The notes beneath the pieces are model-generated. The model was not told where the DNA came from and did no database searches. It was given only the letters and a program-made list of their open reading frames with translations. From Oscillospiraceae bacterium (GTDB lineage Bacteria > Bacillota > Clostridia > Oscillospirales > Oscillospiraceae), in NCBI GenBank assembly GCA_017935145.1, contig JAGBIE010000026.1, positions 1-64,000 on the forward strand: a stretch of DNA of 64,000 bases, given 5' to 3'. Shown here piece by piece: positions 18,984 through 28,042 of the stretch (positions are counted from its first letter, which is position 1; the number at the start of each line of letters is the position of its first letter). The position numbers were made by a program, and so were the translations under genes.

Positions 18984-20141
18984 TCAAATATAGTATCTGG
19001 CAGACTGTTCTTTGGCGGGTTTTAGCCCCGTTTCATCCACTGCAAAGAGGGAAAAAAGGTCACTATAGCGCCGCCAAAGGGTAAACAGTTCCTCCCTTTG
19101 GGGTTTTTCGCCAGCATTGAGAAGATGAATCTCTCCCCTATCTTTTCCCCCGCGGAGGAGGGCTTTTCCTTTTTCTGAAAATGCCAAAATACGCACTTCA
19201 TCCGTAGGGCGGGACAAATCCGCCTGCCCGATGCCCAAGTAGGCACAGAGAAGCAATCGTTTCAGGCGGGTGCGAGGGTAGCGTTTGGAGAGAGAGGCGT
19301 CTATAATCTCCTCCACAGTGGCTTTTTCACGGACATTTTTCATGACCTTGCGCCACAAGCCCTCTGAGCCGTGGGCGACAGTTGTCCACTCATTTTCTTC
19401 CATAACCCGCAAGCGGGCGAGCATGGCCTTCTGCCCCGCTTCATAACAGTATTGGGGCGCGGAGGCAAACAGCTTTCTTGCATTGGTGGGGACATAGGAA
19501 AGCCAAGTGTCGTTTTGCATATTTTCCCGCAGAGCCGTTGCTGAGGGATGGTGGGGGTGAAGGGTTTTTTCGTGGTAGTCCCCTTCCCGTAAAATTGCCA
19601 TGGGCTTAATGGAAGTACCCTGCTTTTTCAGTTGCAGGCAGTATTCCAGCGCCAAAATATCGTTGGGCGTACGACAGAAATTTTCAATGCCTGTGAGGGT
19701 TTCCAAAGTCTTTTGACGGGCGACGGCATAGGAAAGTCCTTGGGATAGTTTTTCCTTAAGGAGCGGAGAAAATTCCGCAGAAAGCACCGCATCGGCACCC
19801 AAAAGCAGTTGGGAGAGATTTCCCGATTCTGAGCCAAAGGCCAAATAATCCACATTGCCAAATTTGTGAAGAATTTCCACCGCGCCTGCGGCAAAACCCT
19901 CCGCCGAAGAGAGAACTTTTTCCGTGGGCAGTTCCAAAACCAAGTCCGCACCGGCAAGGATTGCTCCCTTGGCGCGGGTGTATTTATCCAGCACCGCAGG
20001 CTCGCCCCGCTGGACAAAGTTACCGCTCATGACGCAGAGGATGGCGGTATCCTCTCCCAATTGGGCGCGGATGGTCTTCATCTGGTGTTCGTGACCCAGA
20101 TGCAGTGGGTTATATTCACAAATAATTCCCACGGTTTTCAT
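18984..20141 (-). CDS. tmcAL: tRNA(Met) cytidine acetate ligase (TmcAL/YlbM family)
   Basis: Nucleotidyltransferase-fold protein of 385 residues. The family member in B. subtilis makes N4-acetylcytidine at the wobble position of elongator tRNA-Met using acetate and ATP. Supporting motifs: GIICEYNPLHLGHEHQM (HIGH-like signature), MSGNFVQRGEPAVLDKYTRA and FGSESG. The ATG at 20141 follows AGGAG. It is divergent from ackA across about 125 bases; the acetate link between the two is suggestive only. Confidence 0.9.
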   Translation of the reverse strand: MKTVGIICEYNPLHLGHEHQMKTIRAQLGEDTAILCVMSGNFVQRGEPAVLDKYTRAKGAILAGADLVLELPTEKVLSSAEGFAAGAVEILHKFGNVDYLAFGSESGNLSQLLLGADAVLSAEFSPLLKEKLSQGLSYAVARQKTLETLTGIENFCRTPNDILALEYCLQLKKQGTSIKPMAILREGDYHEKTLHPHHPSATALRENMQNDTWLSYVPTNARKLFASAPQYCYEAGQKAMLARLRVMEENEWTTVAHGSEGLWRKVMKNVREKATVEEIIDASLSKRYPRTRLKRLLLCAYLGIGQADLSRPTDEVRILAFSEKGKALLRGGKDRGEIHLLNAGEKPQREELFTLWRRYSDLFSLFAVDETGLKPAKEQSARYYI

Positions 20142-20172
20142 GGTTTTTCTCCTATTTTTTGGCAAAGTATAC

Positions 20173-20201
20173 TTGTTTTATGTGGAATAATATAGTAAAA
20201 T
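20173..20201 (+). promoter_or_regulatory. possible promoter of ackA
   Basis: TTGTTT (20173-20178), 17 bases, TAAAAT (20196-20201). An overlapping TATAGT at 20191 has a poor spacer. Confidence 0.4.
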
Positions 20202-20266
20202 ATCCCTTGTGTGATTACTATACCACTAAAACCAATACGAAACAAGAGATTTTAGGAGTGAAAGAC

Positions 20267-21466
20267 ATGAATATTCTGGTTATCAACGCCGGCAGTTCCT
20301 CTCTGAAATATCAGCTGATGGATCCCGATACCGGTGCAGTATCCGCCAAGGGTATTTGCGAACGCATTGGCATTGACGGCAAGTTCACCTACAAGGCAGG
20401 CGGCAAGACCATTATTGATGCACAGGAAATCCCCATGCCCACCCATAGCGAAGCCATTGAGGCTGTTTTGGGCGCTTTGGTCAGCCCCGAACACGGTGTG
20501 GTTGCATCCATGGACGAAATTGACGCTGTGGGTCACCGCGTGCTCCATGGTGGCATGGAATTCACCGAATCCTGCTTGGTAGACGAAGCCTGTAAGGCCG
20601 CTATCCGCAAGTGCATCCCTCTGGGTCCCTTGCACAATCCTGCCAACCTCACTGGCATTGAAGCCTGCGAAAAGGCCATGCCCGGCAAGCCCCAAGTGGC
20701 TGTGTTTGACACTGCTTTCCACATGACCATGCCTGCCGAGGCTTATACTTACGCCATCCCCTACGAATACTACGAAAAAGACGAAGTCCGCCGCTACGGC
20801 TTCCACGGCACTTCCCACCGCTACATTTCCGGTCGCGCACTGGATATGCTGGGCAAGACCGAAAATCCCGAAGGCGTGCGTGTGATTAACTGCCACTTGG
20901 GCAACGGTTCTTCCCTGTGCGCCATGGTTGGCGGTAAGTGCGTGGACACCACCATGGGCCTTGGCCCCTTGGCTGGTATCCCCATGGGCACCCGTTGCGG
21001 TGATATTGACGGCACCATCATCGAATTCCTCATGGACAAATACGGCTATGACATCAAGCAGATGATGAACATCCTCAACAAGAAGTCCGGCGTGCTGGGC
21101 ATTTCCGGTGTAAGTTCTGACTTCCGCGATTTGGAAGCCGCTGCCGAAAACGGCAACACTCGCGCCAAACTGGCTCTGGATAAGTTCTTCTACGAAGTGC
21201 GCAAGTCCATCGGCGCTTATGCTGCCGCCATGGGCGGTGTGGATGCCATTGTGTTCACCGGTGGTATCGGTGAAAACGGCATCGCAAACCGCAAGCGCAT
21301 CATGAAGGGTCTGGAATACCTGGGCTGCCAGATTGATGACGAAAAGAACAATGTTCGTGGCAAGGAAACCATCATCTCCACCGATGATTCTTCTGTGAAG
21401 ATCATGGTCATCCCCACCAACGAAGAACTGATGATCGCCAAGGACACCGCCGCTTTGGCAAAATAA
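20267..21466 (+). CDS. ackA: acetate kinase
   Basis: Converts acetyl phosphate and ADP to acetate and ATP in fermentation. 399 residues. Motifs: NAGSSSLKYQL (phosphate loop), VGHRVLHGG, FDTAFHMTMP, RRYGFHGTSHRYIS, GNGSSLCAM and the C-terminal FTGGIGENG. The ATG at 20267 follows AGGAGTG; an in-frame extension to 20159 has no ribosome site. No pta gene is adjacent; the PduL phosphotransacylase of the eut operon at 44 kb makes the same acetyl phosphate. Confidence 0.97.
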   Translation: MNILVINAGSSSLKYQLMDPDTGAVSAKGICERIGIDGKFTYKAGGKTIIDAQEIPMPTHSEAIEAVLGALVSPEHGVVASMDEIDAVGHRVLHGGMEFTESCLVDEACKAAIRKCIPLGPLHNPANLTGIEACEKAMPGKPQVAVFDTAFHMTMPAEAYTYAIPYEYYEKDEVRRYGFHGTSHRYISGRALDMLGKTENPEGVRVINCHLGNGSSLCAMVGGKCVDTTMGLGPLAGIPMGTRCGDIDGTIIEFLMDKYGYDIKQMMNILNKKSGVLGISGVSSDFRDLEAAAENGNTRAKLALDKFFYEVRKSIGAYAAAMGGVDAIVFTGGIGENGIANRKRIMKGLEYLGCQIDDEKNNVRGKETIISTDDSSVKIMVIPTNEELMIAKDTAALAK

Positions 21467-21479
21467 GAAAGACGCAAAA

Positions 21480-21512
21480 ATCCCGTCAAGCAAATGCTTG
21501 ACGGGATTTCTT
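21480..21512. terminator. intrinsic terminator between ackA and mgtE
   Basis: 12-bp stem ATCCCGTCAAGC / GCTTGACGGGAT with an AAAT loop and T-rich tail. A-run on the other side allows bidirectional use with convergent mgtE. Confidence 0.9.
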
Positions 21513-21518
21513 TTTGTC

Positions 21519-22934
21519 TTACAGACCCAGCCACTGAATCAGGAACAGCCACACAAGGCCGTAGTAGATGACAACGGCAACAAGGTCGTTGATGGTGGTA
21601 ATCAGCGGGCCGGATGCCACAGCGGGGTCGATATTGAGTTTCTTAAAGAGAATAGGAATAATCGTTCCCATTAAACTAGAAATGAGCATGGCAGCCAACA
21701 GCGCCACACCAGTGCAGAGGGCAACGGAGAATGCCATGGGCACGGCAATGCCTTTTGCGAGGGTCAGATAGCCACCCACCAAGAGGAAGGATAGCACACT
21801 GATGATAAAGCCGTTGCACAGACCCACTCGTGCTTCCTTGCCGATGAGGAAGAGTTTTTGTTTGCCTGTGATTTGCTCATCCATCAGCACACGAATGGCG
21901 ATAGCAAGGGACTGAGTGCCCACATTACCTGCCATGGCGAGGATGAGGGATTGGAAGCAGACCACCACGGGGATTTCCGCGGCGATACCTTCAAACAGAC
22001 CCACTACGGAGGAGACCACAAGACCCAGCACCAGCAAAATGGCCAGCCAAGGCAGGCGCTTGCCGATACTCTTGGTAAGAGGCTCGTCCAAATCTTCTTC
22101 TGCGGTCAAACCAGCCAGTTTTGCATAGTCTTCTACCAGCGCTTCATCGACCAATTCGGTCAAGTCCTGGGCGGTCACAACGCCAATGAGGCGGTTATCT
22201 TCATCCAAGACGGGAATGGAGTCCTCAGAGTAGTCCTTCATGCGCTCGATACAATCGTCCAGCTTTTCAGAGGCATAGACATAGGGATAAGATGTCATGG
22301 TGATGGTTTCCAAGTCATCTCCCTCGCGGGCGCGAATCAGGTCTGTGAGTTCAATGGCGCCAAGGAGGGTTTCGTCCTCATCCACCACATAGAGGGTAGA
22401 AAGGTTGTCATGCTCCTCCGCCTGCTTGACCAGTTCCCGCATGGCTTGCCGCACGGTGCAGCCCTCGGGAATGGTGATGAAGTTGGTGGTAATGCGAGAA
22501 CCGACTTCGTCCTCATCGAAGGAAAAGACCAAGTCCAGTTCTTCACGGCTTTCCGCCTCCATGAGGCTGACCAGTTTCTTCTGCTCATCCCCGTCCAATT
22601 CTCTGAGGTATTCCGCAGCGGTAACGGTTTCCAAAAGGGACAGCAAATCTGCCCGCTTACGGATGGAAAGTTCGCCGATATAATCGGTAATTTCATCAAA
22701 GTATTCGAAAATCAGTGCCAGAGTGTCCATATCCAAAACGGAGTAGAGACGCACACGCTCTTCCCTGCTCAGTTCTTCCATGGCGGCGGCAATATCGTTT
22801 TCGTGATAGTCGGTGAGTTTTTCTGCTTTGCGTTTAGGGGTAAGGCGGCTGCGGACAATTTCCAAAATTTCCGCCTTATAGTCCGGATGTTGCAGTTCTA
22901 AGTTCAGTTCTTCCGGAAAGTTTTTCTGATCCAT
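21519..22934 (-). CDS. mgtE: magnesium transporter MgtE
   Basis: Mg2+ channel-type transporter, 471 residues. MgtE N-domain (about 1-130) rich in acidic residues, two CBS domains (about 135-255, with YVVDEDETLLGAIELTDLI and VLDEDNRLIGVVTAQDLTE), a plug helix, and a C-terminal five-helix membrane domain with LAMAGNVGTQSLAIAIR and PIVLF-like segment GTIIPILFKKLNIDPAVASGP (last part GPLITTINDLVAVVIYYG). In this family the cytoplasmic domains sense Mg2+ and close the pore. Shine-Dalgarno TTAGGAGG precedes the ATG. An attenuator-like leader lies upstream. Confidence 0.95.
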   Translation of the reverse strand: MDQKNFPEELNLELQHPDYKAEILEIVRSRLTPKRKAEKLTDYHENDIAAAMEELSREERVRLYSVLDMDTLALIFEYFDEITDYIGELSIRKRADLLSLLETVTAAEYLRELDGDEQKKLVSLMEAESREELDLVFSFDEDEVGSRITTNFITIPEGCTVRQAMRELVKQAEEHDNLSTLYVVDEDETLLGAIELTDLIRAREGDDLETITMTSYPYVYASEKLDDCIERMKDYSEDSIPVLDEDNRLIGVVTAQDLTELVDEALVEDYAKLAGLTAEEDLDEPLTKSIGKRLPWLAILLVLGLVVSSVVGLFEGIAAEIPVVVCFQSLILAMAGNVGTQSLAIAIRVLMDEQITGKQKLFLIGKEARVGLCNGFIISVLSFLLVGGYLTLAKGIAVPMAFSVALCTGVALLAAMLISSLMGTIIPILFKKLNIDPAVASGPLITTINDLVAVVIYYGLVWLFLIQWLGL

Positions 22935-22991
22935 TGGGAACGCCTCCTAACATTTGAGGTTTTTCCGCAACGGGGTCTGTGGTTTGGGTAT

Positions 22992-23035
22992 AAAAAATGC
23001 CATTGCTTTTCAAAACACTTTGAAAAGACAATGGC
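22992..23035 (-). terminator. strong intrinsic terminator in the mgtE leader
   Basis: On the minus strand GCCATTG-(T bulge)-CTTTTCAAA pairs with TTTGAAAAG-CAATGGC, 16 bp with one bulged base and a GTGT loop, followed by ATTTTTTA. It lies after the small upstream ORF and 57 bases before the mgtE ATG, so it must be read through for mgtE to be expressed. Confidence 0.88.
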
Positions 23036-23115
23036 GATGCCGAAAAGGGCAGATTTATACCAAAGCGGAACAGGGACGACCCGTTGCTTTTTTCATACAT
23101 AATCGCACATTGTCT
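23026..23115 (-). promoter_or_regulatory. candidate antiterminator pairing in the mgtE leader
   Basis: The minus-strand RNA segment from 23115-23102 (AGACAATGTGCGAT), inside codons 10-15 of the upstream ORF, can pair with 23038-23026 (ATCGCCATTGTCT), which contains the 5' arm of the terminator. That is 13 bp with one bulged U. The pairing also uses the base that is bulged in the terminator. The two structures exclude each other. Confidence 0.65.
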
Positions 23116-23144
23116 GTATTGACGCTACAACTACCGCCGTCCAT
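23055..23144 (-). CDS. 29-residue leader peptide upstream of mgtE
   Basis: Short ORF starting at ATG 23144 with the Shine-Dalgarno AGAGGTGG about 6 bases upstream. It begins MDGGSCSVNTDN and ends KKATGRPCSALV, with cysteines at 6, 16 and 25. It lies between a consensus promoter and a terminator, the arrangement of an attenuator leader peptide. A longer in-frame reading to 23378 has no ribosome site and crosses a terminator and the promoter, so it is rejected. I do not recognise the peptide. It could instead be a small functional protein. Confidence 0.6.
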   Translation of the reverse strand: MDGGSCSVNTDNVRLCMKKATGRPCSALV

Positions 23145-23184
23145 AAATTCCACCTCTGCTTTCATTTTGAGATATTTCTCAAAT

Positions 23185-23213
23185 ATTATACTCCCGTTAT
23201 TTTGCATTGTCAA
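23185..23213 (-). promoter_or_regulatory. consensus SigA promoter of the mgtE leader
   Basis: On the minus strand TTGACA (23213-23208), exactly 17 bases, TATAAT (23190-23185). A perfect match to the consensus. The transcript would start near 23178. Confidence 0.9.
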
Positions 23214-23218
23214 ACAAC

Positions 23219-23254
23219 AAAAAAAGAACTGCCTAGGTAGGCAGTTCTTTTTTT
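23219..23254. terminator. intrinsic terminator after the acyltransferase-like gene
   Basis: Stem GAACTGCCT / AGGCAGTTC with an AGGT loop. There are seven A before the stem (T-run on the minus strand) and seven T after it. Confidence 0.88.
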
Positions 23255-23256
23255 GC

Positions 23257-24672
23257 TTAATCGATATCCCGCAGGACAGTTTCGGGGGCGACATCCAAGC
23301 GCTCCGGGTGCTGGATGAGGCGGTTGAAGGTTTTGAGCACGGTGGCATAGTAGAAACCGTCCACAGTGCGCTCGTCAAGAGTGAAACCGCAGTCCATATA
23401 GCGCTTGGTGATCAATTCCCCTTCCATGTTCATTTCCACTTTTTTGTACTTTTTGCCAAAGGCGCAGAAGGCAGGAATGTTACCGAAATCGTACAGATGG
23501 TGCACAATGGCGGGAATGCCCAAAGAGCCCATGGAGGTGAAGTACACACTGCCGTGGAAGGGACTGACTTCCAAAAGGAAGCCGGGAAGCAGACCAAAAT
23601 AGTCCATGGTTTTGAGAATCCAAACCACAAGTTTCAGCACCACACCGGGGATGAAACTGAGGAGTTTTGCCACCTGATCCAAATCGTTATTGAGGGGGGT
23701 GTTTTTCACTTCCTCCACAGCGGCATCGAACTTGTTGTAGATATCATAGATGGAATCGCCGGGATCAAAGTGGAGTTTAATGCAGGTATCGGGGGCTTCC
23801 ACCGTCATGTCCTTTTTGATGGTCATGGAGAACTGAATATCCCGATCGCGAGAGTAAATCTTCTGTCCCGACAAGAAGCGGTTCATAGCAGGATACATGG
23901 CCACGCAACGGACATAGGCCGCAATGAGCACATGGGTCAGGCCAAAGCCCGTAAGGCCTTCCTTGCGCTTCTGCTGAACATATTTTTCCGCATTGGTGAT
24001 GTCAATGGGGGTGACAATTTGGTTGGCTGCGCCAGTGCGGTTGGGCATGATGTAGGGAGACACCATGGAAATAGGGGGCAAGGTGCGGACACGGCGACCA
24101 TCGGCACGGTCACCCCAAGTGGGATGATATGCGCCATCCAAATGGGGCTGCATGGCAAGCACCGTGAGGAACACCGCCACAGTCATGGTAATATCTGCCC
24201 AGCGATTCCATCCCCAATGGGCAAAATCGAGGCCATGGCTATGGTAGCCCAAATAGCCTTCTGTGCCGATGATGGAAAGAAGCACCAAAAGGAGCAGAAG
24301 ATTGTGGCGCAATTTGCCACAGAGAATGACATTGTAGATGACGGCTACCACAATCATCAGTACCCACAAAAGCGCACCAAAGAAACGGTGTTCCACAGCG
24401 GCGCTGGATGTGACAGCAAAATAGACACACATGAGTGCAAAGGGAATGGCAGAGCGATATAGATGGTTTTTACCACCCAAGACGACCGTGAGTCCATACA
24501 GCAGGCAGGCTGCCAAAGGCAGAATCAGGTTGAGCCACAAAGTCACGTTTTCTGCGCCTTTCTCTCCGCAGAAATAAGCAATGCGGCCAGCCACGGAACA
24601 AGCCAGCAAGAGGACTACGAGCCATGTCAGCACGCTTTTGCGACTGACAAAATAAGTAACTCTTTTTTCCAT
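23257..24672 (-). CDS. membrane protein fused to a 2-oxoacid dehydrogenase acyltransferase-like domain
   Basis: 471 residues. The first ~190 carry about six hydrophobic helices (for example SVLTWLVVLLLACSVAGRIA and LLLLLVLLSIIGT). The second part (about 195-465) resembles the catalytic domain of E2 acyltransferases and chloramphenicol acetyltransferase, with VTPIDITNAEKYV, GLTHVLIAAYVRCVAMYPAMN and FTSMGSLGIPAIVHHLYDFG. The E2 active-site motif HxxxDG appears here as ERTVDG, so the catalytic histidine is a glutamate. No lipoyl domain is present. The membrane part might be a sensor or anchor; acyltransferase activity is doubtful. No Shine-Dalgarno is seen, and the promoter places the transcript start at the ATG. 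Confidence 0.72.
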   Translation of the reverse strand: MEKRVTYFVSRKSVLTWLVVLLLACSVAGRIAYFCGEKGAENVTLWLNLILPLAACLLYGLTVVLGGKNHLYRSAIPFALMCVYFAVTSSAAVEHRFFGALLWVLMIVVAVIYNVILCGKLRHNLLLLLVLLSIIGTEGYLGYHSHGLDFAHWGWNRWADITMTVAVFLTVLAMQPHLDGAYHPTWGDRADGRRVRTLPPISMVSPYIMPNRTGAANQIVTPIDITNAEKYVQQKRKEGLTGFGLTHVLIAAYVRCVAMYPAMNRFLSGQKIYSRDRDIQFSMTIKKDMTVEAPDTCIKLHFDPGDSIYDIYNKFDAAVEEVKNTPLNNDLDQVAKLLSFIPGVVLKLVVWILKTMDYFGLLPGFLLEVSPFHGSVYFTSMGSLGIPAIVHHLYDFGNIPAFCAFGKKYKKVEMNMEGELITKRYMDCGFTLDERTVDGFYYATVLKTFNRLIQHPERLDVAPETVLRDID

Positions 24673-24678
24673 GAAATA

Positions 24679-24707
24679 AGTATAACATATTTTGACAAAG
24701 TGCGCAA
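24679..24707 (-). promoter_or_regulatory. promoter predicting a leaderless mRNA
   Basis: On the minus strand TTGCGC (24707-24702), 17 bases, TATACT (24684-24679). Seven bases after the -10 lies 24672, the A of the downstream ATG. Confidence 0.55.
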
Positions 24708-24727
24708 GAATTTTGCTGTTGGGCAAA

Positions 24728-24760
24728 GAAAAACCCCAAGCCTGTTGGCTTGGGGTTTTT
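24728..24760. terminator. terminator of tRNA-Gly
   Basis: Stem CCCCAAGCC / GGCTTGGGG with a 4-base loop (TGTT on plus), T-rich tail in the minus direction and TTTTT on the plus side. Confidence 0.85.
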
Positions 24761-24761
24761 A

Positions 24762-24837
24762 TGGAGCGGGTGACGAGGCTCGAACTCGCTACCTCCACCT
24801 TGGCAAGGTGGCGCTCTACCGGATGAGCTACACCCGC
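24762..24837 (-). tRNA. tRNA-Gly (GCC)
   Basis: 76 nt on the minus strand with encoded CCA. Acceptor GCGGGTG / CACCCGC, D arm GCTC...GAGC, anticodon stem CCACC / GGTGG with loop TTGCCAA giving anticodon GCC, and T arm with GTTCGAGC. A terminator follows at once. Confidence 0.97.
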
Positions 24838-24892
24838 ACATCAAGTGCATGGCTTATTATAGCAAGTTTTCCCCATTTGTCAAGCACTGTTT

Positions 24893-25756
24893 TTACGAAT
24901 TTTCATGATTTCTGTCACGGAAGCCTGTGCCGAAAATTTGGTGCGCCTCCTGCAAAATGACAAAGGCTTCCCCATCTGTTTCCCTGACCATGGCTTTTAA
25001 CTGGGCAATTTGGTTGCGCCGCATGGCGGTCATGAGCACCGGGCGATGTTCCCCCGTATAAGACCCTGTAGCGGAGAAAATGGTGACGCCACGGCGCAGT
25101 TCCCGCTCGATTTTCTTGGCAATGGCCGTATGCTTTTGGCTCACAATCATGGCAACGGCGGTGCGGTCTCCCCCATAGAGGAGGCGGTCCACCATCTGGG
25201 AGGAGCAGTACATGGAGGCGGCGCTGTAGAGAGCTTTGTTCAGGTCTCGATACACAAGTCCTGTGAGGGCTACCACCAAGATATCCACGCAGAAAATCAG
25301 TTTTCCTAAGGACAGTTCGGGGAATTTTCCTTTGAGCAGGCGGGCGATAATATCCACGCCACCTGTAGATGCGCCCACCCAAAAGACCAATCCCAGACCG
25401 ATACCACCCACAGCGCCACCCATAAGCGCGCCCAAAAGTGGCTCTGTTTGAGGGGCGGGAAGATTGGAAAAGACCTCCAAAAAGATAGAGGATGTGAGCA
25501 TACCCCACAGAGAACGGAGGAAAAAACTCCGCCCTAAATGGCGATAGCCCAAGAAAAATACGGGCACATTGAGTAGGGCGGTGTAAAAACCCACACCACC
25601 AAAGCCCAAAATGGTGGTCAGGAGCAAGCCAATGCCCGAAAGACCACCCACATTAATTTGATTGGGACTTAAAAACCAGTGAAAGCCCAAAGCAAATACG
25701 GCACTGCCCACAAGAACAGTGCCGTATATTTTGAGGGTTTGTACGCCATGGTTCAA
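24893..25756 (-). CDS. YitT family membrane protein (DUF2179)
   Basis: 287 residues. Five to six membrane helices in the first ~200 residues (GTVLVGSAVFALGFHWFL, GGLSGIGLLLTTILG, GAVGGIGLGLVFWVGASTGGVDIIARLL), then a soluble C-terminal DUF2179 domain (GATIFSATGSYTGEH-like segment, here GVTIFSATGSYTGEHRPVL). Transport substrate of the family is unknown. The only good start is TTG at 25756 with AAAGGG upstream. It lies 36 bases after the topoisomerase A gene. Confidence 0.85.
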   Translation of the reverse strand: MNHGVQTLKIYGTVLVGSAVFALGFHWFLSPNQINVGGLSGIGLLLTTILGFGGVGFYTALLNVPVFFLGYRHLGRSFFLRSLWGMLTSSIFLEVFSNLPAPQTEPLLGALMGGAVGGIGLGLVFWVGASTGGVDIIARLLKGKFPELSLGKLIFCVDILVVALTGLVYRDLNKALYSAASMYCSSQMVDRLLYGGDRTAVAMIVSQKHTAIAKKIERELRRGVTIFSATGSYTGEHRPVLMTAMRRNQIAQLKAMVRETDGEAFVILQEAHQIFGTGFRDRNHENS

Positions 25757-25792
25757 GAAGTCTGCACCCTTTCCGGCAAAAGCCGTTGAGAC

Positions 25793-28042
25793 TTACAGGT
25801 CCATGGTGATTTGGGTTTCACCCACATCCTCACCGCGCAAAATTGCGCCTGCGGCGGGGATTTTCCGCACCCGATAGCGGGAAGGATCGGAGATGCCGGA
25901 ATCCTCGAAGAAGACGGCTTTCTCCACAATATCCTTCTTTTTGAGGCTCAGCACAGCCACGCCTTGGGTGGAACGGGTGGTTTTCACTGCCAACTGGGCG
26001 GTGGAGAAGACGAGGGCGCGACCATCTGCCGTGGTGAGGGCTACCTGACGGTCGCCCTTGGGCAGATGCAGTACAGCAACCAGAGGACTCTTATCGCTAT
26101 ATGCGCCCGTTAAGCGGCGGCGGTTGGACTTGGTGGCATAGGCAGAGACTTCCACCTTTGCCGCTTTGCCGTTTTGGAACAGAAACACGAAGTTGCCCCC
26201 ATAGTTCCCCGGCAGGCAAACGCCCATGACCGTCTCCCCTTCTTCCATTTGGAGTTTGGTGGGGAGATAATCGCCCAAGAGAGAGGCTTTTCCATCTTCA
26301 AACTCACCGCAGGTGGTTTTATAGACCTGCTGTTTGTTGGTGAAGACCAGCAGTTCCGCGCGGTTGGTGGTTTCGCAGGTGAAGGAGAGGCAGTCCCCTT
26401 CCTTAAACTTCTGCTCACCGGACATACGCAGAGACTGGGGTGTGATCTTCTTGAAATAGCCTTCCCGAGAAACGAAAATTGATACGGGATAATCGGGAAT
26501 TTCTTCTTTTTCTTCTTCCACTGCCGTTTGACTATCGAAGACCAGTGTGGTTTTTCGCTCCTGACCGTACTTTTTAGCGCAGGAGGTCAGTTCTTCGATG
26601 ATGATATTCTTCACACGGCGGTCTTTTTGGAGGATATCCTGCAAATCGGCAATATCCTCTTCCAGTTTGGCAGTTTCTTCCAAACGGTGGAGAATGTGTT
26701 CTTTGTTAATATTGCGCAGTTTGATTTCTGCCACAAAGTCCGCCTGCACTTGGTCAATGCCAAAGCCAATCATCAGGTTGGGTACCACTTCGGCTTCTGC
26801 CTCGGTCTCGCGGATAATGCGGATGGCTTTATCAATGTCCAAAAGGATTCTGCTCAGACCCTTGAGCAGATGGAGTTTTTCCTGCTTTTTCTGCAGGTCA
26901 TGATACACACGGCGGCGGACACAATCGGTGCGCCATGCCGTCCACTCTAAGAGCAGGTCACGCACGCCCAAAACCTGAGGCGAGCCAGCAATGAGCACAT
27001 TGAAGTTACAGCCGAAAGAGTCCATGGCAGGGGTGAGTTTAAAGAGTTTCTGCATGAATTTTTCCGGCTCGACACCGCGCTTGAGGTCAATGGCGATTTT
27101 AAGACCATTTAGGTCACTTTCATCGCGGATATCGTTAATTTCACGGATTTTGCCTGCTTTCGTCAGTTCCGCCACTTTATCCACAATGGCTTCCGTGGTG
27201 GTGGTGTAGGGCAGTTCGTAAATTTCAATGATGTTGCCCTCCTTCACATAGCGCCACTTACTGCGCACACGGAAAGAGCCACGGCCTGTCTCATAAATGG
27301 CGGCCATTTCGGCAGCATCGTAGAGAATTTCGCCACCTGTGGAAAAATCGGGGGCGGGCATCACATCCAAAAGATTGGCATCGGGGTCGCGAATGAGCGC
27401 GATGGTAGCATCGCACACTTCTTTCAGGTTAAAACCGCAGATATTCGACGCCATGCCAACAGCGATGCCCATATTAGCCGCCACCAGGATATTGGGGAAA
27501 GTGGTGGGCAGCAGCGTGGGCTCTTTCATGGTGGCGTCATAGTTATCCACAAAGTCCACGGCATCGCAGTCGATATCCTTAAAAATCTCCTGACAGATGG
27601 GCGCGAGTTTTGCCTCGGTATAACGGGAGGCGGCGTAGGCGGCATCGCGGGAGTAGACCTTGCCAAAGTTACCCTTGGAGTCCACAAAGGGATGCAAAAG
27701 CGCCTCGTTACCCTTAGAAAGGCGCACCATGGTTTCGTAGATGGCGGCATCGCCATGGGGATTTAAGCGCATGGTTTGACCCACGATGTTGGCGCTCTTG
27801 GTTTTGGCGCCGTTTAAAAGCCCCATTTTATACATGGTGTAAAGGAGTTTGCGGTGGGAGGGCTTAAAGCCGTCAATTTCAGGAATGGAGCGGGAGACGA
27901 TGACGCTCATGGCATAGGGCATGTAGTTCATTTCCAAAGTATCGCAAATGGCCTGTTCCATGACCTGAGCGCTGAGGCCAACCACATTGGTGGGGATGGC
28001 TTTTTTTACGCTCTCTTGCTCCGTTTTTTTCTTTCTTGCCAC
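25793..28042 (-). CDS. type IIA topoisomerase subunit A (ParC/GyrA-like), divergent
   Basis: DNA breakage and reunion subunit, 749 residues. The active-site tyrosine is in AASRYTEAKL. The winged-helix part has IVGQTMRLNPHGDAAIYE, where canonical GyrA/ParC proteins have a GKYHPHGD-like motif. A long coiled coil (about 385-470) and a reduced C-terminal beta-propeller follow. No GyrA box is seen, so wrapping supercoiling activity is unlikely and a decatenase role is more plausible. GTG at 28042 is preferred (AGGAC upstream) over GTG at 28057, which directly abuts the subunit B stop. Forms a pair with the upstream gene. Confidence 0.88.
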   Translation of the reverse strand: MARKKKTEQESVKKAIPTNVVGLSAQVMEQAICDTLEMNYMPYAMSVIVSRSIPEIDGFKPSHRKLLYTMYKMGLLNGAKTKSANIVGQTMRLNPHGDAAIYETMVRLSKGNEALLHPFVDSKGNFGKVYSRDAAYAASRYTEAKLAPICQEIFKDIDCDAVDFVDNYDATMKEPTLLPTTFPNILVAANMGIAVGMASNICGFNLKEVCDATIALIRDPDANLLDVMPAPDFSTGGEILYDAAEMAAIYETGRGSFRVRSKWRYVKEGNIIEIYELPYTTTTEAIVDKVAELTKAGKIREINDIRDESDLNGLKIAIDLKRGVEPEKFMQKLFKLTPAMDSFGCNFNVLIAGSPQVLGVRDLLLEWTAWRTDCVRRRVYHDLQKKQEKLHLLKGLSRILLDIDKAIRIIRETEAEAEVVPNLMIGFGIDQVQADFVAEIKLRNINKEHILHRLEETAKLEEDIADLQDILQKDRRVKNIIIEELTSCAKKYGQERKTTLVFDSQTAVEEEKEEIPDYPVSIFVSREGYFKKITPQSLRMSGEQKFKEGDCLSFTCETTNRAELLVFTNKQQVYKTTCGEFEDGKASLLGDYLPTKLQMEEGETVMGVCLPGNYGGNFVFLFQNGKAAKVEVSAYATKSNRRRLTGAYSDKSPLVAVLHLPKGDRQVALTTADGRALVFSTAQLAVKTTRSTQGVAVLSLKKKDIVEKAVFFEDSGISDPSRYRVRKIPAAGAILRGEDVGETQITMDL

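Follow-up and report, generated by a model that had tools for sequence, protein, structure and literature searches.

Within the window, by which we mean the whole 64,000-nucleotide stretch of DNA that was analysed, the minus strand encodes the Mg2+ transporter MgtE behind a leader region whose features are collected in Table 1. The original prediction, made from the sequence alone, had placed here a TTGACA-N17-TATAAT promoter, a 29-codon ORF with its own Shine-Dalgarno (SD) sequence and a 16-bp intrinsic terminator before mgtE. All three are real, and the terminator stem contains one bulge and has an energy of -20.2 kcal/mol. The 13-bp, one-bulge pairing that had been drawn between the leader ORF and the terminator 5' arm is exact to the base, and it excludes the terminator. 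That no M-box was visible is borne out by an Rfam search of positions 20000-26000, in which neither the M-box (RF00380) nor any other family reached its gathering score at the leader.

Table 1. Features of the mgtE leader region in the window
Feature	Position	Strand	Sequence	Basis and remarks
Promoter	23185..23213	-	TTGACA-N17-TATAAT	sequence; TTGACA 23213-23208, 17-nt spacer, TATAAT 23190-23185
Leader ORF SD	23151..23156	-	GAGGTG	sequence; near-invariant in relatives
Leader ORF, 29 codons	23055..23144	-	MDGGSCSVNTDNVRLCMKKATGRPCSALV	ATG 23144, TAA 23055; conserved leader ORF in relatives
Putative antiterminator strand, leader codons 10-15	23102..23115	-	AGACAAUGUGCGAU	13 bp, one bulge, with 23026-23038
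Putative antiterminator partner, overlapping terminator 5' arm	23026..23038	-	AUCGCCAUUGUCU	13 bp with 23102-23115; helix with one bulged U
Intrinsic terminator	22992..23035	-		stem 23035-22999, U-tract 22997-22992
Second long-range strand, leader codons 20-23	23078..23087	-	GCAACGGGTC	complementarity to 22967-22977 only
Partner of 23078-23087	22967..22977	-	GACCCCGTTGC	sequence; one C bulged; between terminator and mgtE SD
mgtE SD	22943..22950	-	TTAGGAGG	sequence
mgtE, Mg2+ transporter, 471 aa	21519..22934	-		PF01769 110 bits; TIGR00400 (mgtE) 260 bits, cut-off 232.75

The upstream gene ends in a strong hairpin with A- and T-tracts (23219-23254), and since this separates mgtE from that gene, mgtE appears to be transcribed alone. 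The whole window leader is unusually structured (z = -4.84, a value reached by 0 of 200 shuffles). The 13 bp form part of a predicted duplex between the leader and the terminator arm that has an energy of -22.3 kcal/mol, compared with -15.8 kcal/mol for dinucleotide-shuffled leaders (p = 0.035, a single locus). By itself the window antiterminator only moderately beats chance, and the strong evidence for it is conservation in relatives. The pairing of leader codons 20-23 with the stretch before the mgtE SD (GCAACGGGTC with GACCCCGTTGC) could matter in the read-through RNA.

The leader ORF and its pairings in related bacteria

Eisenbergiella and a scatter of families in the class have relatives of the window MgtE at 50-63% identity, and nearly all of these have a leader ORF in the same place, with AGGTG and an ATG or GTG start codon. 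The pattern M-D-x-(C/G)-(D/G/S)-S-x-x-G-R-S is found in nearly all Clostridia relatives of the window mgtE, with examples including MDGCGSSNGRSW (Eisenbergiella), MDSCDSHGRSRS, MDGCDSHGRIW, MDGDSHYRSSN, VDAGDSCDKRGKR, MDSCDGSYRRRG and MDSCDSHGRSR..; the window peptide itself has no clear GR motif. Among 51 non-redundant leaders, Asp is codon 2 in 44 and a second Asp or Glu falls within codons 3-6 in 29. There is no proline run, and the C-termini differ freely among loci. A search of seven leaders against Pfam and NCBIfam HMMs returned no match for the peptide at E<=1.

The four other genomes of the genus encode only a canonical mgtE, 26-28% identical to the window MgtE, and lack the window type, which is 63% identical to that of Eisenbergiella. 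This absence from the genus-mates suggests that the window gene is likely to have arrived by horizontal replacement, leader included. The canonical mgtE genes of the genus-mates are preceded by similar leaders (MDAPGSTGHG, MDANSSGSSDHGRSR, MDASGSTGHG). A leader or a terminator is missing from about half of those canonical mgtE loci that were examined.

Selection on the leader was assessed from dN/dS, which is about 0.2 in clades A and C, 0.26 in clade D, where dS is near saturation, and 0.5 in clade B. The motif GG[GA]CGA is in frame in 21 of 21 cases at a variable distance from the start codon, and AGT is in frame in 105 of 115 (10 out of frame), again with variable spacing from the start. 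Judged on this sequence evidence, with translation not measured, the leader ORF is in frame and under purifying selection. One leader (L045) keeps the nucleotides GACAGTATAGGCGAAGT despite a one-base deletion, its peptide reading DSIGEV; this frameshift reflects either a sequencing error or a constraint at the RNA level.

In order to evaluate the alternative pairing we used 27 loci with a terminator, whose 5' arms were curated by hand because the output of two automatic terminator finders put several stems in the wrong place. The duplex test was restricted to the arm, as a test over the whole ORF mixes many weak helices. Native leaders pair with their own terminator 5' arms with a summed energy of -565 kcal/mol, compared with -455 +/- 16.7 kcal/mol for permuted partners (0 of 20,000 permutations), and the same pairing compared with dinucleotide shuffles gives a Fisher p of 2e-10. 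The antiterminator strand lies at median leader codons 12-20, directly 3' of the conserved motif. Within one clade of eight, compensatory double changes occur at 4 of 14 helix pairs, and only 2 of 500 shuffles matched the covariation score of the helix. When the register is slid, the controls collapse, with covariation far below that of the native register, and the terminator itself is paired in 100% of cells in this clade. Some loci have no clear antiterminator (for example L013, L020, L050, L054 and L026). The original prediction had offered conservation of the ORF and of the alternative pairing in relatives as its test, and it survives on both counts: conservation of the N-terminal codons extends over many families, dN/dS is below 1, and the antiterminator co-varies with the terminator arm.

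Several loci show further features. At L009, L010, L019, L049, L050 and L069 a shared short string, TTTTTATGCCC (TTTTTTATACCC in the window), often comes after the U-tract. An Eisenbergiella locus (L008:1850-1920) keeps the leader ORF and the terminator 5' arm but apparently no longer has the 3' arm, its leader stop being 63 nt before mgtE. A cobalamin riboswitch flanks the mgtE locus at L050:3320-3538.

The terminator is absent from several canonical mgtE loci, where a hairpin hides the mgtE SD instead (for example GUCUUGCUUCC..GGAGGUAAGAC at L003 and L005, z about -3.7). The leader of canonical mgtE pairs with the SD-proximal region, native partners again beating permutations (0 of 20,000), and it seems to compete with the hairpin that sequesters the transporter SD. 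Three loci of one genus (L104, L107, L110) share a conserved block, CCGTATGCACAGTCTGCCCCCTTT, between leader and canonical mgtE.

Transporters downstream of the leader

Two scans were carried out for further leaders. The class scan (R1) is partly circular, since its 15 best matches come from training genomes; of its matches outside the training set at E<=0.0011, 8 of 9 lie upstream of canonical mgtE, the exception being L108. Four candidates were rejected as false positives: L113-L115 resemble genes for small acid-soluble spore proteins, and L116 is another coding start. The second scan (R2) covered 398 genomes of the phylum, almost none of which belonged to the training set, and relied on a sequence-only model of the SD plus about 17 codons that mainly represents leaders of the MDAGGSS type. 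All 15 new matches at E<=0.0021 are upstream of a Mg2+ transporter gene, on the same strand and at a distance of 45-265 nt. The transporters are MgtE (L157-161, L166, L172), the MgtA-type Mg2+ P-type ATPase (L163-165, L167, L168, L170) and CorA (L169, L171). They were identified with Pfam and NCBIfam on representatives; the assignments at L158-L161 and L164 rest on near-identity to neighbours confirmed in this way. The best NCBIfam matches of the truncated ATPases and of CorA fall below whole-protein cut-offs, whereas the Pfam scores are above theirs. The leader is therefore present at mgtE, as originally proposed, but a scope confined to mgtE was too narrow, as the leader also precedes corA and mgtA.

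An M-box riboswitch is located just upstream of the leader at 6 of 6 MgtA loci (L163:1287-1449, L164, L165, L167, L168, L170), and these loci carry two Mg2+-linked elements in series, with the M-box followed by the leader ORF and then the ATPase gene. An mgtE locus of the window's own family (L018:1167-1323) has an M-box and, directly after it, a leader-like ORF (VDGESTGRRRPHGMRR..) that immediately precedes mgtE. Most leader loci have no M-box according to the Rfam search. The presence of one leader at three unrelated transporter families, together with the tandem M-boxes, is the main reason for assigning Mg2+ as the signal.

Codon usage and ribosome position in the leader

Serine in codons 2-14 of the leaders is encoded by AGU in 98 of 145 cases, compared with 9.4% in mgtE genes (p = 2e-54), and arginine by CGA in 40 of 62, compared with 6.2% (p = 2e-28). 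The background consists of the downstream mgtE genes and not of genome-wide usage, and it is AGU and CGA that those genes use least for Ser and Arg. AGC, which is decoded by the same tRNA-Ser as AGU, is not favoured among leader Ser codons, and from codon 15 onward usage is at background level. The first AGU is found at codon 5-7 in 40 of the 51 leaders; in the window the rare codons are AGT at codon 5 and CGA at codon 14. At canonical mgtE loci AGU pairs with a UACU-containing anti-SD strand. For the terminator group we considered and rejected the possibility that AGU is conserved as a by-product of pairing: downstream ACU is not enriched (35 seen, 56.8 expected), and pairing is no higher for AGU bases (0.59) than for the rest (0.64). 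Pairing with downstream RNA therefore fails to explain AGU in the terminator loci, and the AGU/CGA enrichment may reflect either slow decoding or a role at the RNA level.

The effect of ribosome position was modelled by imposing a ribosome footprint on the leader RNA at the 27 loci and, for the window, also on nascent RNA up to the terminator 5' arm. With the P-site at codons 1-3, the 27-locus mean probability is 0.53 for the antiterminator and 0.42-0.45 for the terminator; at codons 9-15 the terminator reaches about 0.94 and the antiterminator about 0, and without a ribosome the terminator has a mean of 0.73. For nascent RNA of the window the model gives the antiterminator a probability of 0.97 for codons 1-5, 0.68 for codon 6, 0.00 for codons 7-18 and again 0.97 from codon 20. 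A ribosome beyond about codon 20 frees the antiterminator strand, so timing matters. In the complete window leader at equilibrium the terminator is favoured at every ribosome position, and therefore the decision must be kinetic, taken during RNA synthesis. Given that most leaders have their first AGU at codon 5-7, the antiterminator could still form if the ribosome were to pause while AGU occupies the A-site. The modelling agrees with the logic originally put forward, in which a ribosome stalled in the first codons leaves mgtE on and a moving ribosome covers the strand and lets the terminator form; the dependence of expression on translation and on Mg2+ is still an inference.

Interpretation, alternatives and known systems

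We consider it probable that the window region is a ribosome-read transcription attenuator, the most likely signal, by analogy, being a low Mg2+ level in the cytoplasm that impairs early elongation; this reading was reached without expression, ribosome-profiling or Mg2+ data. The anatomy, the conservation, the covariation and the exclusive association with Mg2+ transporters are established by sequence analysis. It is inferred that Mg2+ is the signal, that the ribosome stalls or drops off, and in which direction the switch works; for signal and direction the inference rests on analogy to MgtL and CorL. Transcription would start from the promoter in Table 1, and the 29-codon leader would be translated while the leader RNA is being made. 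A ribosome delayed or lost in the first six or so codons would allow codons 10-15 to pair with the terminator 5' arm, and mgtE would be transcribed. A ribosome arriving promptly at codons 7-18 or thereabouts during terminator synthesis would cover the antiterminator strand; the terminator would then fold and keep mgtE off. The conserved, signal-dependent part would be the start of the ORF, with Asp2 and with Ser and Arg as rare AGU and CGA. Under adequate Mg2+ the ribosome is predicted to pass the first codons, the terminator or the SD hairpin forming and the transporter being off; under low Mg2+, elongation would slow or fail within about six codons and the transporter would be on. The sensitive step may be the early acidic residues, the decoding of AGU/CGA, or both. 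A more specific proposal, which we advance only tentatively and regard as rather doubtful, is that AGU (codons 5-7) and CGA (codons 8-14) are Mg2+-sensitive slow codons that place the ribosome, in a single Bacillota-wide design controlling MgtE, CorA or MgtA through a terminator or the SD, and in series with the M-box at mgtA.

Among the alternatives, the leader could sense general translation competence (antibiotics, ATP, ppGpp) and not Mg2+ in particular. In our model any early elongation delay opens the antiterminator, and there is a precedent in Salmonella mgtCBR, where mgtM senses ATP (PMC3641672). The exclusive association with Mg2+ transporters and the tandem M-boxes nevertheless point to Mg2+ homeostasis, and we regard this alternative as unlikely while still conceivable. 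An RNA-only riboswitch, in which the conserved 5' nucleotides bind Mg2+ or another ligand and the ORF is incidental, would account for the strong nucleotide conservation, for AGU and CGA being fixed beyond amino-acid need, and for the retention of GACAGTATAGGCGAAGT at L045 although the reading frame shifts. It is difficult to reconcile with conserved blocks whose frame is kept even though their spacing varies (AGT 105 vs 10, GG[GA]CGA 21 of 21), with dN/dS below 1, with a strong SD and start codon throughout, and with the lack of an Rfam family match for the leader, and is in our view improbable.

The enrichment of Ser and Arg codons, with rare ones chosen, and a geometry resembling trp-type attenuation are also what would be expected of a classical amino-acid attenuator, with charged tRNA-Ser or tRNA-Arg as the signal and amino-acid supply controlling mgtE. 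This is highly improbable, as the downstream genes are always Mg2+ transporters and never Ser/Arg genes, biosynthetic genes or tRNA-synthetase genes, AGC is not favoured despite sharing its tRNA-Ser with AGU, and no run of a single codon is present. Finally, the peptide, which is conserved, could act in trans on the transporter in the manner of MgtR, the RNA structure being incidental; such an action on a transporter has been proposed for the M. tuberculosis M-box uORF2 peptide (PMC12810186). This we find barely credible, given that the codon signature is confined to codons 2-14, the C-termini vary freely between loci and the RNA pairing co-varies. The best reading remains a family of leader-peptide attenuators for Mg2+ homeostasis in Bacillota, with Mg2+ sensing inferred, that is analogous and not homologous to the enteric MgtL and CorL.

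In Gram-positive bacteria the regulation of Mg2+ uptake is mostly attributed to the M-box riboswitch, and enterics provide the known examples of Mg2+ sensing by the ribosome (MgtL, CorL, mgtM/P). No report of the Bacillota Mg2+-transporter leader was found in the open-access literature searched. In many bacteria mgtE, mgtA and corA are under M-box control (PMC4072509), but the M-box is an RNA aptamer without an ORF, and it occurs in tandem with the leader at L018 and the MgtA loci, as described above. In M. tuberculosis a translational M-box platform involving Rho is coupled to a conserved uORF2, of a family described as mycobacteria-specific (PMC12810186), which resembles our loci in having a conserved Mg2+-associated small ORF in tandem with an M-box. 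The Corynebacterium ilvB attenuator, whose uORF senses amino acids through Ile/Leu/Val codons (PMC10272879; also PMC11109978), has the same combination of uORF, antiterminator and intrinsic terminator.

The enteric systems are closer in function. MgtL, upstream of mgtA in E. coli and Salmonella, carries EPDP, with its destabilising acidic residues, at codons 2-5; early ribosome loss at low Mg2+ refolds the RNA and switches the transporter on, termination being Rho-dependent (PMC11282234). It is likewise a short ORF before a Mg2+ transporter gene, whereas the Bacillota leader is unrelated in sequence, mostly precedes mgtE, uses an intrinsic terminator, has no proline or acidic run beyond Asp2 and is marked by rare AGU/CGA. 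Efficient translation of the CorL uORF represses corA in E. coli and Salmonella (PMC11552253); this uORF also precedes a Mg2+ transporter gene and has a conserved N-terminus, but it is Rho-dependent and, in the literature examined, described only in enterics. In Salmonella mgtCBR, the tandem attenuators mgtM and mgtP sense ATP and proline-charged tRNA (PMC3641672). As in our model, the position of the ORF relative to alternative stems sets transcription of a Mg2+ transporter operon, but those ORFs are unrelated to the Bacillota leader and their signals differ from the one inferred here.

Leader-peptide attenuation of Mg2+ transporters is already known, and what sets the present family apart is a distinct leader sequence, its use with an intrinsic terminator or an SD hairpin, and its occurrence across Bacillota. 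Because of the AGU/CGA signature, synonymous mutations offer a direct test of what the ribosome senses. If our reading is true, the occurrence of an unrelated leader family before all three classes of Mg2+ transporter would mean that ribosomal reading of Mg2+, as in MgtL and CorL, is a recurrent solution.
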